Shown in pieces: positions 2,925 to 58,261 of a stretch of 64,000 nt of DNA. The translations under genes were made by a program, and so were the position numbers. Every line of letters starts with the position of its first letter. The first letter of the stretch is position 1. The notes under the pieces were generated by a model. That model saw only the letters and a program-made list of their open reading frames with translations. It did not search any database and was not told the DNA's origin. Origin of the DNA: Phycisphaerae bacterium (lineage in GTDB: Bacteria; Planctomycetota; Phycisphaerae; Tepidisphaerales; Tepidisphaeraceae); contig JAICIO010000005.1 in NCBI GenBank assembly GCA_025924315.1, forward strand, positions 62,001 through 126,000, read 5' to 3'.

Positions 2925-3003
2925 GTCATCCTGAGCGAAGCGAAGGATCTCCATCTCGAATACGTCTTGCCATCCCGAGATCCTTCGCTTCGCTCAGGAT
3001 GAC
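2925..3003. repeat. Inverted repeat class A, copy 1 (inside tad operon)
   Basis: Two perfect 27-bp inverted arms (2925-2951 and 2977-3003) flank a 25-bp loop. The core of each arm reads CTGAGCGAAGCGAAGGATC or its complement. Related copies lie at 28839-28915 and 57516-57594. This copy fills the 143-bp gap between tadA and tadB, the widest spacer between the pilus biogenesis genes, and would form a very stable hairpin in the transcript. Confidence 0.95.
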
Positions 3004-27582: not shown

Positions 27583-27641
27583 GTAGGGTGTGCTTCAGCA
27601 CACCATCTTCGGGAGAAACGGTGTGCTGAAGCACACCCTAC
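27583..27641. repeat. Inverted repeat class B, copy 1
   Basis: Arms 27583-27604 and 27620-27641 (22 bp, perfect). Each arm is itself a hairpin GGTGTGCT-TC-AGCACACC. It lies just after the stop of the polymerase gene and 7 bp before the ATG of the next glycosyltransferase. Related copies are at 32178, 36491 and 58156. Confidence 0.95.
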
Positions 27642-27648
27642 GAAAGCA

Positions 27649-28848
27649 ATGCGGATCATTGTCGCGCACAACTTCTATCAGCAGCCGGGCGGAGAGGACC
27701 AGGTCTTCGCCGCCGAGACTGAGCTGCTCGAATCGTACGGCCACAAGCCGGTGCGCTTCATCATGCACAACGACGAGATCGACGGCATGAGCCGGATCTC
27801 GCTGGCGGTGAAGACGACGTGGAATCGCGATAGCAAGGCAAAACTCGCCGACGTAATTCGCGAGGTGAAACCGGATGTCGTGCACTTTCACAACACGTTT
27901 CCGCTGATCTCGCCGGCCGCTTACGCCGCCGCGCGCGAAGGCGGCGCGGCCGTCGTGCAGACGTTGCACAACTTTCGTCTTTTGTGCCCCAACGCGGTCT
28001 TCTTCCGTGACGGCAAGGTGTGCGAAGACTGCCTGCACAAAAAGACCAAGCTGCCCGGCGTGATCAACCGGTGCTATCGCGGAAGTTTCGCCGCGAGCGC
28101 GATGTGCGCGACCTCGCTGACGATTCACAACCTCGCCGGCACGTGGCGAAACGCGGTAGACACGTACATCACGCCATCCGAATCCGCCAAGCGAAAGTTC
28201 GTGGAAGGCGGACTACCCGCGGATAAGATCGTCGTGAAGCCGCACTTCCTGCCGACGGATCCGGGTGTCGGTCCCGGCGATGGGGATTATACGGTGTTCG
28301 TCGGACGTCTGTCGTTCGAAAAAGGCGTCGAGACGCTGCTCGCCGCGTGGGACAAGCTCGCCGCGAACTGCCCGCTGAAGATCATCGGCGACGGTCCGCT
28401 CGCGCCGCAGGTGCAGTCCGCGCTGAAGGGCGACCCTCGGATCGAATGGCTCGGGCGTAAGTCGCTCAACGAGATCTACGAAATCGTCGGCCGCGCGAAG
28501 ATGCTGATCTTTCCGTCGCAGTGCTACGAAACCTTCGGTCGCGTCGCGATCGAAGCCTACGCGCGCGGCACGCCGGTCGTCGCGACGGATCACGGCGCGA
28601 TGGCGGACGTGGTGGATCAAGGCCGCACCGGATTGCGCTTCGCGCCCGGCAGCCCGCAGGATTTGGCCGATCGCGTGCAGCAGTTGCTCGATGAGCCGGA
28701 GCTGCTCGCGCAAATGCGCGTGCAGGCGCGACACGAGTTCGAAACGAAATACACGGCGCCGGCCAACTACGAGCGCCTGATGCGGATTTACGAGAACGCG
28801 ATCGCGCGGGCACATGGCTTAGAAGGAAATCTCGCGCTGTCATCCTGA
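27649..28848 (+). CDS. Glycosyltransferase family 4 (second)
   Basis: A 399-residue GT-B enzyme. The N-terminal domain has NFYQQPGGEDQVFAAETELL and a Cys-rich insert (LLCPNAVFFRDGKVCEDCLHK) seen in a subgroup of GT4 proteins of exopolysaccharide clusters. The C-terminal domain has FVGRLSFEKGVETLLAAW, LKIIGDGPLAPQ and the EX7E region CYETFGRVAIEAYARGTPVV. It probably adds a sugar to the lipid-linked intermediate. The final codons and the TGA stop lie inside a class A repeat, so the last residues LSS come from the repeat. Confidence 0.93.
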   Translation: MRIIVAHNFYQQPGGEDQVFAAETELLESYGHKPVRFIMHNDEIDGMSRISLAVKTTWNRDSKAKLADVIREVKPDVVHFHNTFPLISPAAYAAAREGGAAVVQTLHNFRLLCPNAVFFRDGKVCEDCLHKKTKLPGVINRCYRGSFAASAMCATSLTIHNLAGTWRNAVDTYITPSESAKRKFVEGGLPADKIVVKPHFLPTDPGVGPGDGDYTVFVGRLSFEKGVETLLAAWDKLAANCPLKIIGDGPLAPQVQSALKGDPRIEWLGRKSLNEIYEIVGRAKMLIFPSQCYETFGRVAIEAYARGTPVVATDHGAMADVVDQGRTGLRFAPGSPQDLADRVQQLLDEPELLAQMRVQARHEFETKYTAPANYERLMRIYENAIARAHGLEGNLALSS

Positions 28849-28915
28849 GCGAAGCGAAGGATCTCGGGATCGAGAGGTGCGCTCGAACGAGATCCTTCGC
28901 TCCGCTCAGGATGAC
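28839..28915. repeat. Inverted repeat class A, copy 2
   Basis: 27-bp arms 28839-28865 and 28889-28915 with one mismatch. The left arm contains the TGA stop (28846-28848) of the glycosyltransferase; the right arm ends 14 bp before the deacetylase start. Confidence 0.95.
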
Positions 28916-32177: not shown

Positions 32178-32200
32178 GGTCCGCTGAAGCGGACCCTACA
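32178..32200. repeat. Inverted repeat class B, single arm
   Basis: One arm only, GGTCCGCTGAAGCGGACC followed by CTACA, preceded by the class-B flank AATAACC. Read on the minus strand, TAG in GTAGGGT is the stop codon of the phosphoesterase gene ending at 32196. The remaining spacer 31942-32177 shows nothing else. Confidence 0.85.
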
Positions 32201-35550: not shown

Positions 35551-36493
35551 GTTGCGCATTCCTCTCGTCACACTCTTGTACCTGTCGCTCGCGCCCGCGT
35601 TGCTCGCGCAGTCGCCGCAGCGCTACGAATATGCCGAACTGCACATGGGCGTACAAGTGCGGCTGACGGTGTATGCGGATTCGCAGGAGAAAGCGGAGGA
35701 TGGATGCACCAAAGCGTTCGCCCGCATCGCGCAGCTCGAAGATGTGATGAGCGACTATCGCCCGACGAGCGAAGTGATGCGCCTCTGCGATCAACCGGTC
35801 GGGAAGCCAGTGAAGGTGAGCAACGATTTGTTCAACGTGATAAAGGCCTCGCAGGAACTGGCGGAGAAAACCGGCGGCGCGTTTGACATCACGGTCGGAC
35901 CCGTCGTGAAGCTGTGGCGCGCGGCGCGGAAATCGAAACAGATGCCCGCATCGAACGATCTTTCAAAAGCGCTTCAGTCTGTCGGCTGGCAGAAGCTCAA
36001 ACTCGACGAGAAGAATCACACCGCCACACTCCTCGTCGCGAACATGAAGCTCGACCTCGGCGGGATCGGCAAAGGCTTCGCGGGCGATGAGGCGATTAGA
36101 ACACTGAAGAACAACGGCCTGCCCATCGCAATGTTCGAAGCCGGCGGCGACATCGTCCTCGGCGACGCCCCGCCCGATACCAAAGGCTGGACCATTGAGA
36201 TCGAGCAAAAGATTCCGCGCGGGCCCAGTCGCCTCACGCTCGCCAATTGCGCAATCTCAACCTCAGGCGACACCGAACAATTCATCGAGATCGCCGGCAA
36301 GCGCTATTCGCACGTCGTCGATCCGCACACCGGCCTCGGCCTGACGAATCACTTCGCCGCTACAATCGTCGCGCCCGATGGCATGACGAGCGACAGCCTC
36401 TCGACCGCTCTTACAGTTCTTGGCGAGAAAGAAGCGGCGAGACTGCTTCGGTCAAATCCGAAAGTCCAAGCGTGGGTGAGAGAAGCAAAGTAG
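35549..36493 (+). CDS. apbE: FAD:protein FMN transferase ApbE
   Basis: A 314-residue ApbE-family flavin transferase. ATG 35549 starts a good signal peptide (RIPLVTLLYLSLAPALLAQS), so it works in the periplasm. Motifs: FARIAQLEDVMSDYRPTSEV, SQELAEKTGGAFDITVGPVV, LDLGGIGKGFAGDEAI, EAGGDIVLGD, SGDTEQFIEIAGKRYSHVVD with PHTG. ApbE attaches FMN to Thr residues of membrane flavoproteins such as Nqr/Rnf subunits. No target gene is nearby. Its stop codon TAG is the first three bases of a class B repeat. Confidence 0.95.
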   Translation: MLRIPLVTLLYLSLAPALLAQSPQRYEYAELHMGVQVRLTVYADSQEKAEDGCTKAFARIAQLEDVMSDYRPTSEVMRLCDQPVGKPVKVSNDLFNVIKASQELAEKTGGAFDITVGPVVKLWRAARKSKQMPASNDLSKALQSVGWQKLKLDEKNHTATLLVANMKLDLGGIGKGFAGDEAIRTLKNNGLPIAMFEAGGDIVLGDAPPDTKGWTIEIEQKIPRGPSRLTLANCAISTSGDTEQFIEIAGKRYSHVVDPHTGLGLTNHFAATIVAPDGMTSDSLSTALTVLGEKEAARLLRSNPKVQAWVREAK

Positions 36494-36562
36494 GGTCCGC
36501 TTCAGCGGACCAGTTATTCATTCGTCGAGAGAAATAACCGGTGCGCTGAAGCGCACCCTACA
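36491..36562. repeat. Inverted repeat class B, copy 3 (mixed arms)
   Basis: Left arm 36491-36511 contains GGTCCGCTTCAGCGGACC; right arm 36540-36562 contains GGTGCGCTGAAGCGCACC. Each arm is a perfect self-hairpin, but the two arms differ from each other at the covarying positions. It includes the apbE stop codon and lies 22 bp beyond the end of the convergent DUF3500 gene. Confidence 0.95.
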
Positions 36563-55948: not shown

Positions 55949-56040
55949 ACCCGCATTGTATCGAGTTCCCGCGACGTGTCGCACGCGTGTCAAAAGTTTG
56001 CAAACCGCTGCGTCCGCACGCACTATGCGACGCTGGAAGG

Positions 56041-57492
56041 ATGATCCGCAAACTCCTAACAAGCACAGGCGTTGCGACGGCTCTCGGTCTTGCTGCCCTG
56101 CCCACATTGGGGCAGCAGCAGCAGGATCTGGCGCGCTTTCAACGCTCGCTCGAACAGATCCAGCGCGACACGATCCTGACGATCAACCCGAATGTCCCGG
56201 CGAATCAGCGCGTTTACTTCGATTACGGCGCATATATCACCGCCGGGTATCTGTCGCTCGACGACAACGTGAACGACAACCACGTGCTGCGGCAGTACCA
56301 GTTTCTGCCGTACATGCGACTGAACCTCGACAACGTGCACGAGGTCTTCATCCGCGGGATCATTGGTTATCGCGACTTTAATGAAGGCGACAGCTTCGAT
56401 GGGCTCGGCGATGAGCCGATCGACGGTGATCTCGACGTCGGCTACTACAAGTTCGATCTCGCGCGTTACATGTCCGCGTACAAGGGACACAAACCCGATT
56501 ACACGCTCACGATCAAAGGCGGCCGCGATCTGGTGTATTGGGCGAACGGGCTGGTGCTGAGCGACCGGCTCGACGGCATCATGATCGACGGGAGTGCCGG
56601 TAACTTTGGCCTGTCGTTCGTCGCGGGCGTCACGCCCACGCGCACGGTCGATTTCGACGCCACGCGCCCCGAATTCGATCACGACACCCGCCGCGGATTC
56701 TACGGGCTGATGCTCAATACCAACATCGCGGGACATCAGCCGTACGTCTATGCGATGTTGCAGCGCGATTACAACGACGCGGACGAATCGACCAGCGGCA
56801 ACATCACCACGAAGTTCGATTACAACAGCTACTACCTCGGCATTGGCTCGAGCGGTCCTCTGAGCGATCGCCTGCTCTATAGCACCGAGTTTGCTTATGA
56901 AGGCGGGAATTCGCTGTCGAACAGCTTCACGATCGGCGGGCCGTTCATTTCGCCGGTCCAGCAGCAGCGCGACGAGATCCAAGCCTTCGCCGGCGATGCA
57001 CGGCTCGATTATCTCTTTGGCGATCATCACAACACGCGCGCGAGTGGTGAACTGATCTTCGCCTCGGGCGATGACGATCGTCTGAACACGTCCGATACCT
57101 TCGGCGGAAACAAACCCGGTACGAAGGACCGCGCGTTCAACGCCTTCGGCCTGCTCAACACCGGCCTGTCGTTCGCGCCGCAGGTTTCGAATCTTCTCGC
57201 CCTGCGCCTGGGCATCACCACGATGCCGCTTCCCGATCTCGGACCGTTTCGACGCATGCAGGTCGGCGGCGACTTCTTCATCTTCGACAAACTCGAAGCC
57301 GACGCGCCGATCAACGAGCCCAGCGCGAGCGGCCGTTATCTCGGTTGCGAGCCGGATCTGTATCTGAACTGGCAGTTGACGAGCGACCTGACGCTGGCGG
57401 TACGGTACGGTGTTTTCATTCCGAACGGCGACGTGCTCCCGAGCGATGACGCGCGACAGTTTATCTTCGTGGGATTGACGTATGCGTTCTAG
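56041..57492 (+). CDS. Outer-membrane beta-barrel protein, porin-like
   Basis: A 483-residue protein with a signal peptide (LLTSTGVATALGLAALPTLG) starting at the ATG at 56041. The rest shows alternating short amphipathic strands and turns (FDYGAYITAGYLSL; YTLTIKGGRDLVYWANGLVL; FDYNSYYLGIGSSG), ending with an aromatic terminal strand DARQFIFVGLTYAF, the classic last beta-strand of barrels with C-terminal Phe. It resembles alginate-export-type or planctomycete porin families but I cannot name one. GGAAGG lies immediately before the ATG. Confidence 0.82.
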   Translation: MIRKLLTSTGVATALGLAALPTLGQQQQDLARFQRSLEQIQRDTILTINPNVPANQRVYFDYGAYITAGYLSLDDNVNDNHVLRQYQFLPYMRLNLDNVHEVFIRGIIGYRDFNEGDSFDGLGDEPIDGDLDVGYYKFDLARYMSAYKGHKPDYTLTIKGGRDLVYWANGLVLSDRLDGIMIDGSAGNFGLSFVAGVTPTRTVDFDATRPEFDHDTRRGFYGLMLNTNIAGHQPYVYAMLQRDYNDADESTSGNITTKFDYNSYYLGIGSSGPLSDRLLYSTEFAYEGGNSLSNSFTIGGPFISPVQQQRDEIQAFAGDARLDYLFGDHHNTRASGELIFASGDDDRLNTSDTFGGNKPGTKDRAFNAFGLLNTGLSFAPQVSNLLALRLGITTMPLPDLGPFRRMQVGGDFFIFDKLEADAPINEPSASGRYLGCEPDLYLNWQLTSDLTLAVRYGVFIPNGDVLPSDDARQFIFVGLTYAF

Positions 57493-57515
57493 AAAAGACC
57501 AAATGCCGCCGCGCT

Positions 57516-57594
57516 GTCATCCAGAGCGCAGCGAAGGATCTCGGGATCGAACACCGTTCTCGACTTCGAGATCCTTCGCTGCGCTCAGGATGAC
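57516..57594. repeat. Inverted repeat class A, copy 3
   Basis: 27-bp arms 57516-57542 and 57568-57594, one mismatch. A base differs from the other copies in both arms in complementary fashion (GCGCAGCG against CGCTGCGC). The right arm contains the ATG (57590-57592) of the following lipoprotein gene. Confidence 0.95.
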
Positions 57595-58138
57595 AGCTTT
57601 CGCGGGGTTCTTGAGTGTGCTGATGGGTTGTCATCCCCTGCACAATGCCCAGGCCCTCAAACCCGACCTCGCGAAGAATGATGAGGATTCGCAGCTGCAG
57701 TTCTGGCACACGCTGGCCGACGCGCCAGTCACGAGCAACGACGAGGCCTTTCACGGCCTGTTGCTCTACCTCCACGACAAGGACAACGCCGCCGATTACC
57801 CCGCTCGCGTGCAGCTTTTGAAAAACGAAGGGCTGCTGCCGAATTCGTTCAATGAGCCGGCCGACGCGCCCGCCTCGCGCGGAACGATCGCCGTGGCGCT
57901 GGTTCATGCGCTTCACGTAAAGGGTGGGATCAACCTGCACTTGCTGCCAATGTCGGAGCGGTACGCAACGCGTGAATTGCAATTCATCAATGTGTATCCG
58001 CCGAGCAGCGCCAACCAGACGTTCTCCGGCAACGAGTTCGTGGGTATAATTGGCCGAGTTGAAGACTATCAGCGCGGCGATCCCACCACAGCAGCACCCG
58101 CCGCGCCGACAGGGGACGCAAACGTGCCGGCGAAGTAA
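57590..58138 (+). CDS. Lipoprotein whose start codon lies in a repeat
   Basis: A 182-residue protein from ATG 57590, giving signal sequence TAFAGFLSVLMGC with lipobox LMGC. The reading frame is open back to 57482, but the additional residues contain HPERSEGS, the known translation of the repeat, and are not signal-like. The mature part contains WHTLADAPVTSNDEAFHGLL, LLKNEGLLPNSFNEPAD and a SMSER...YPPSSANQTFSG segment, without known domain. It probably works with the upstream barrel or downstream FecR-like protein at the envelope. Confidence 0.75.
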   Translation: MTAFAGFLSVLMGCHPLHNAQALKPDLAKNDEDSQLQFWHTLADAPVTSNDEAFHGLLLYLHDKDNAADYPARVQLLKNEGLLPNSFNEPADAPASRGTIAVALVHALHVKGGINLHLLPMSERYATRELQFINVYPPSSANQTFSGNEFVGIIGRVEDYQRGDPTTAAPAAPTGDANVPAK

Positions 58139-58155
58139 CGGGCAGAACCTACGTT

Positions 58156-58232
58156 GTAGGGTGCGCTTCAGCGCACCGGGTATTTTCGTTTTTTTCGCAT
58201 TCGAATAACCGGTGCGCTGAAGCGCACCCTAC
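58156..58232. repeat. Inverted repeat class B, copy 4
   Basis: Arms 58156-58177 and 58211-58232 (22 bp, perfect) around GGTGCGCTTCAGCGCACC. Outer flank of the right arm is AATAACC, as in copies 2 and 3. It lies between the lipoprotein and the FecR-domain gene. Confidence 0.95.
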
Positions 58233-58261
58233 GACGATCGCTCCCGAAGGAGGAGCGCACT

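Follow-up and report, generated by a model that had tools for sequence, protein, structure and literature searches.

A dispersed palindromic repeat, designated class A, is located in frame in a lipoprotein gene, most likely within the signal peptide, where it separates the charged n-region from the hydrophobic core. The gene has probably retained its start upstream of the insertion, with the repeat being read through. The gene lies in a stretch of 64,000 nucleotides, here called the window. Of the class A copies inspected in the genome, 13 out of 89 are in frame inside genes; all 13 precede a hydrophobic helix, and in 11 cases the helix belongs to a signal peptide. In-frame REPs and the palindromic elements of Rickettsia are already known, but the concentration in signal peptides is new.

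Class A is built of two 26-nt arms, GTCATCCTGAGCGNAGCGAAGGATCT, in inverted orientation to each other. Six arm matches forming three copies are present in the window, compared to none in 100 shuffled sequences, and the repeat pair seen in an earlier note on this DNA, at the lipoprotein and at a glycosyltransferase gene, is therefore real. In the genome to which the window belongs (G000; 6.57 Mb, 262 contigs), 148 arms were detected in forward and 146 in reverse orientation, with no hit for the reversed control. Among 61 genomes searched, 12 contain any class A arm, and many arms are found only in G000 and in genome G025, the latter with 68/63. The element measures 79 nt in 71 of 89 copies, and the spacer between the arms 27 nt in 49 of 67 paired copies. 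A pyrimidine precedes GTC in 72 and a purine follows GAC in 75 of the 89 copies; the canonical unit with its tag base on both sides comprises 81 nt, which is exactly 27 codons. Most copies fall outside coding-like ORFs. Rfam searches at gathering thresholds gave no match in the window.

Positions 6 and 22 of the arm covary (C-G 104, T-A 23, T-G 7, C-C 2 among 136 arms), and the T variant was never present in both arms of one element (68 elements). Judging from this covariation, which is the basis of the assignment, each arm appears to behave as a hairpin of its own. The arm core, GAGCGNAGCGA, is nearly invariant and has a free loop base; GCGNAGC is an unusually stable DNA mini-hairpin. Calculated as DNA, the whole element folds far below shuffled sequences (z -9.3), and for single arms the fold energies do not fall below those of shuffled sequences (z -0.47 to +0.64). 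In 68 class A pairs, matching flanks of 1-9 nt, as expected for target-site duplications, were not in excess over shuffles.

Class A is best described as a TGTC-tagged REP dimer close to the CGTC-tagged REPs (Di Nocera et al. 2013, PMC3733652), a superfamily reported in Planctomycetes, without belonging to any of the four families characterized there. Common to both are a YGTC outer tag, of which TGTC is a listed variant, a stem beginning with AT, head-to-head dimers with a spacer of 20-100 nt, the lack of an adjoining transposase gene, and the presence of some copies in ORFs. Set against the 8-9 bp stem of these REPs, that of class A has AT first and the covarying pair 6/22, with G-A mismatches at two inner positions. 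The class A loop is formed by three nucleotides, GNA, instead of 4-5 nt, and the tail is CTC instead of CCA. Due to these differences in loop and tail, class A was not assigned to CGTC-1 to CGTC-4. As an inverted REP doublet able to form a hairpin and spread through one genome, it also resembles the REPINs (Bertels and Rainey 2011, PMC3116915). It differs from them in that their REPs are described as mostly extragenic and that no RAYT gene flanked by class A was detected in G000. With MITEs it shares terminal inverted repeats but not target-site duplications. None of ten Y1_Tnp genes is flanked by a class A arm (up to six mismatches; about 1.5 kb to the left and right, or as far as the contig reaches). 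Eight of these ten genes were scanned against NCBIfam, and all eight match the REP-associated transposase model below its cut-off (best score 78.6 of 80). On contig C16 of G000, a REP-transposase-like gene (L031) is situated between long inverted repeats of the AAAGGGTCCTGTCCCCTTTAAT type, which are unrelated to class A.

The features of the window are listed in Table 1. The reading frame starting at 57482 specifies 218 aa including CHPERSEGSRD...RSFAALRMT, so that the HPERSEGS-type peptide is a translation of the repeat, as had been proposed. The leader is arranged in the order ATGCGTTCTAGAAAAGAC (MRSRKDQMPPR), repeat, and AFAGFLSVLMGC; neither the charged n-region nor the core has been lost, but the repeat lies between them. 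The designation as lipoprotein is derived from LMGC (57620-57631) and from lipobox-like leader ends in relatives; Pfam yielded only a sub-threshold match to TPR_20. Homologous matches were obtained in 26 of 60 relatives.

Table 1. Genes and class A repeat features in the window
Feature	Position	Strand	Remarks
Third class A copy	2925-3003		not in frame in any coding-like ORF
Glycosyltransferase gene	27649-28848	+	family 1/4 (PF00534, PF13439); repeat touches stop and the three codons before it
Class A copy at glycosyltransferase	28839-28915		arms 28839-28864, 28890-28915
Upstream gene	55987-57492	+	outer-membrane beta-barrel-like; Alginate_exp (PF13372), Pfam E 3.9e-7; ends ...GLTYAF*
Lipoprotein gene, 218-codon form through repeat	57482-58138	+	11-nt overlap with stop of upstream gene
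Putative native start and charged n-region	57482-57514	+	MRSRKDQMPPR, net charge +3
Class A element including both tag bases	57515-57595		81 nt = 27 codons; TGTC...GACA
Class A copy at lipoprotein (core match)	57516-57594		arms 57516-57541 (+) and 57569-57594 (-); REP-like hairpin units
ATG proposed earlier as start	57590-57592	+	inside right arm; here read as internal Met codon
Hydrophobic core and lipobox	57596-57631	+	AFAGFLSVLMGC; sequence read directly

Leaders of the lipoprotein were read in ten relatives without class A (L010-L019). In two of them, the gene starts at an ATG overlapping the stop codon of the upstream gene: L014 (G020) begins with ATGCGTTCTAGC (MRSSALLAILSILLAGC) and L017 (G022) with ATGCCTTCTAAG (MPSKPLRRKTC...GTGC). 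The overlap reads ATGCGTTCTAG in L014 and ATGCGTTCTAG at 57482-57492 in the window. The earlier note had supposed that the original ribosome site was replaced by repeat sequence and had suggested orthologues lacking the repeat as a check. Since these two orthologues start at the same position, and since n-region and core are both present around the repeat, the start of the lipoprotein gene was most likely not replaced. It counts against this interpretation that only two of the ten relatives have the overlapping ATG; it is missing from the remaining eight, of which L015 and L018 have a TTG at this place. The AT-rich, repeat-like leaders of L015 (G004) and L016 (G013) are not claimed as repeats, for each pattern gave only a single match in the four genomes in which it was sought. 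The only one of these relatives' leaders with a confirmed repeat is that of L025 from G030, where this lipoprotein has one copy of a different palindromic repeat in its signal peptide, MEMQKSKRWIPAFAGMTLWIVVSLVVGLGGC. This repeat, GATTCCCGCNTTCGCGGGAATGAC, with the translation WIPAFAGMT and nine copies in G030, is presumably of the dRS3/CGTC-1 type, a family name assigned by us. It is an independent signal-peptide case, from another repeat family than class A and in a genome from a different family of the class.

For the genome-wide analysis, 76 stretches around the first-listed arm sites (contigs C1-C63) were retrieved, yielding 69 paired copies, and 18 further stretches from contigs beyond C63 provided 20 more, 89 in total of about 148; lone arms without partner, encountered in ten of the 76 stretches, were not counted. 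All outward exits were examined with a hexamer-based coding score, for which 29 long ORFs of the window served as training set, and the choice among exits was made by coding score and then by eye. The 13 in-frame cases do not include L065, L094, L063, L098, L099, L207, L208, and other genes in which a start codon follows the element, nor L046 with a possible TTG behind it. The 11 signal-peptide cases are the window gene (L056), L060, L068, L082 (TTG start), L104 (glutaminase, PF16335), L105 (GH2), L111 (S41 peptidase), L052, L058 (in a composite that includes another repeat), L198 (Reg_prop), and L209. The remaining two copies are located in the N-terminal tail of an ABC permease (L200, PF00528) and in a loop of a PMT mannosyltransferase (L074, PF02366); loop length varies at this site among PMT relatives, so that the exact insertion there is putative. 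Assuming that n-regions account for at most 4% of coding positions, a figure of our own, 11 of 13 corresponds to a binomial p of 3e-14. In a biased sample of six extra stretches, selected by match to the L104 leader, two (L216, L219) are signal-peptide cases. The glutaminase offers a second comparison: its repeat-free relative L193 has MKQI followed by LSLLALMLVAFQSFA (MKQILSLLALMLVAFQSFA), and L104 has MKRAI, the repeat, and VIALVFVTTLIARG. Relatives of L068 are too distant for leader alignment.

Rickettsia palindromic elements, the best-known palindromes of this kind, are also inserted in frame in protein genes, and proteins with RPE-1 at the N-terminus were reported to be expressed (PMC3733652, PMC10969869). 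They reside in varied genes, in contrast to the 13 class A insertions before hydrophobic helices. The term 'signal peptide' does not occur in the text of PMC3733652. Literature searches returned no paper with HPERSEG, PERSEGS, HPERSEGS, SFAALRMT, WIPAFAGMT, or DRLRGNDG, and titles and abstract beginnings contained nothing on signal peptides with palindromic elements or REPs. In G025, where the same arms mostly form an element of about 190 nt, no signal-peptide insertion was detected in 74 outward arms, on short contigs and with the coding model from G000. This longer element dominates the G025 loci, for example L160, L182, and L184, which suggests that class A arms were reused in separate bursts.

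Passages through the element are open in 152 of 178 cases in the HPERSEGS phase, in 39 in the VILSEAKD phase, and in one in the third phase. Since HPERSEGS...RMT is the only phase normally open in the 27-codon element, the recurrent peptide appears to be the phase that is able to survive, and no moved start is needed to account for it. The alternative put forward earlier is that the ATG at 57590 starts a lipoprotein of 182 aa and that the upstream frame is accidental. The ATG is indeed in frame, opens 182 codons, and lies in the right arm, which had been given as 57568-57594, one base longer than the 26-nt core; moreover, the element's own MT or MS codons run straight into the hydrophobic part of the leader in nine of the 11 signal-peptide cases. 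Intragenic REPs are reported in PMC3733652, where many N-terminal ones in other species were judged to be untranslated. As a start codon, the ATG nevertheless appears unlikely. No Shine-Dalgarno match was detected 3-12 nt before the element ATG in any of ten tabulated genes, ATG 57590 is buried in the stem of a predicted mRNA structure (-92.6 kcal/mol, z -7.6 for the element with flanks), and the short form would have no K or R before the hydrophobic core. Among the first 69 copies, eight exits in the RMT frame, from seven signal peptides and L074, lead into coding DNA that has no start of its own behind the repeat. In all eight, the frame continues uninterrupted from a start codon before the element, compared to 57 of 128 other RMT exits (Fisher p 0.002). 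L052 exits in the AQDD frame with the element ATG out of frame, yet its anatomy is the same. Shine-Dalgarno support for the upstream starts of the ten tabulated genes is uneven and weak evidence, with 5-nt matches in two, 4-nt in two, 3-nt in four, and none in two; for 57482, GGA is the only match.

Two further interpretations concern the function of the insert. Within the 5' coding region, it could form a hairpin with a regulatory role, attenuating translation or protecting the mRNA, with the peptide being incidental. The fold energies far below shuffles, as DNA and as RNA with flanks, would agree with this, but any inverted pair folds in this way and most copies are outside coding-like ORFs; such a role, which is compatible with an upstream start and could be added to it, seems rather improbable. 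Much less probable still is selection for the extension itself, in analogy to long signal peptides that slow export or determine its route. In nine of the ten tabulated genes, the insert has a net charge of +2 to +5, and it recurs in unrelated secreted enzymes. On the other hand, canonical copies have one normally open phase, so that a recurrent peptide requires no selection; the insert of L052 has a net charge of -2, and G025 is without the pattern.

According to the preferred interpretation, insertion with retention of the upstream start, the 79-nt palindrome of two head-to-head REP-like hairpins presumably moved in trans as single-stranded DNA and was inserted in frame into the n-region of the lipoprotein signal peptide. 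Ribosomes would initiate upstream of the repeat, at ATG 57482 or ATG 57503, and read its 27 codons as an n-region extension ahead of the unchanged core and lipobox. Cleavage before the lipobox cysteine would take off the extension and, therefore, leave the mature lipoprotein unaltered. Because n-regions tolerate charged extensions, in-frame insertions may survive there and be purged elsewhere in genes. Where the element arrives at a gene end in the wrong phase, its TGA would close the gene. Such a case is the glycosyltransferase, which ends at TGA 28846-28848 in the left arm, as recognized in the earlier note. With 399 aa, compared to 391-408 aa in seven relatives, the protein is not noticeably shortened, and the donated stop changed its length little. 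Of the earlier interpretation, the supply of a stop codon by the repeat is supported, and the replacement of the lipoprotein start is not. A coding-like ORF is terminated by the TGA of an arm in three of the first 69 copies, namely in the glycosyltransferase of the window, in an M19 dipeptidase (L050), and in L088; no such case appeared when the 20 additional copies were scanned in the same way. Published GTAG REPs likewise often donate a TAG stop (PMC3733652).

The HPERSEGS and SFAALRMT leaders, supposed to be annotation artefacts, may thus be real translated n-region extensions, a claim that can be tested and that affects start-site annotation of class A genes and of similar database entries. 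A simple rule also follows on the sites in genes at which palindromic insertions can persist in frame. Tentatively, and with considerable doubt, n-regions as well as tails and loops before membrane helices could be a general safe harbour for palindromic elements of whole-codon tagged length, with class A as a recurrent source of n-region extensions in secreted proteins that are not related to each other, where export or translation might be tuned in this way.

Other repeats were noticed next to class A. A hybrid terminus recurs in L058, L064, L070, L081, and L083, where CGCAAAAAATCACAGACTCTGAGCG or a closely similar sequence takes the place of one end of the element. In L060 (2420-2643), the class A copy, inspected by eye, seems to be nested in another inverted repeat of the AGAAGCCAGGAGCC type; from this apparent nesting, part of the hydrophobic core of the gene product (LLAPGFWLLASF) may be repeat-derived. 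A second REP family, tagged GTAG (GTAGGGTGCGCTTCAGCGCACC), has seven arms in the window with none expected, at 58152-58236, 27583-27641, 36490-36561, and 32178-32199. One GTAG dimer precedes the start of the glycosyltransferase gene (27649) by 7 nt, and another is situated just after the lipoprotein gene.
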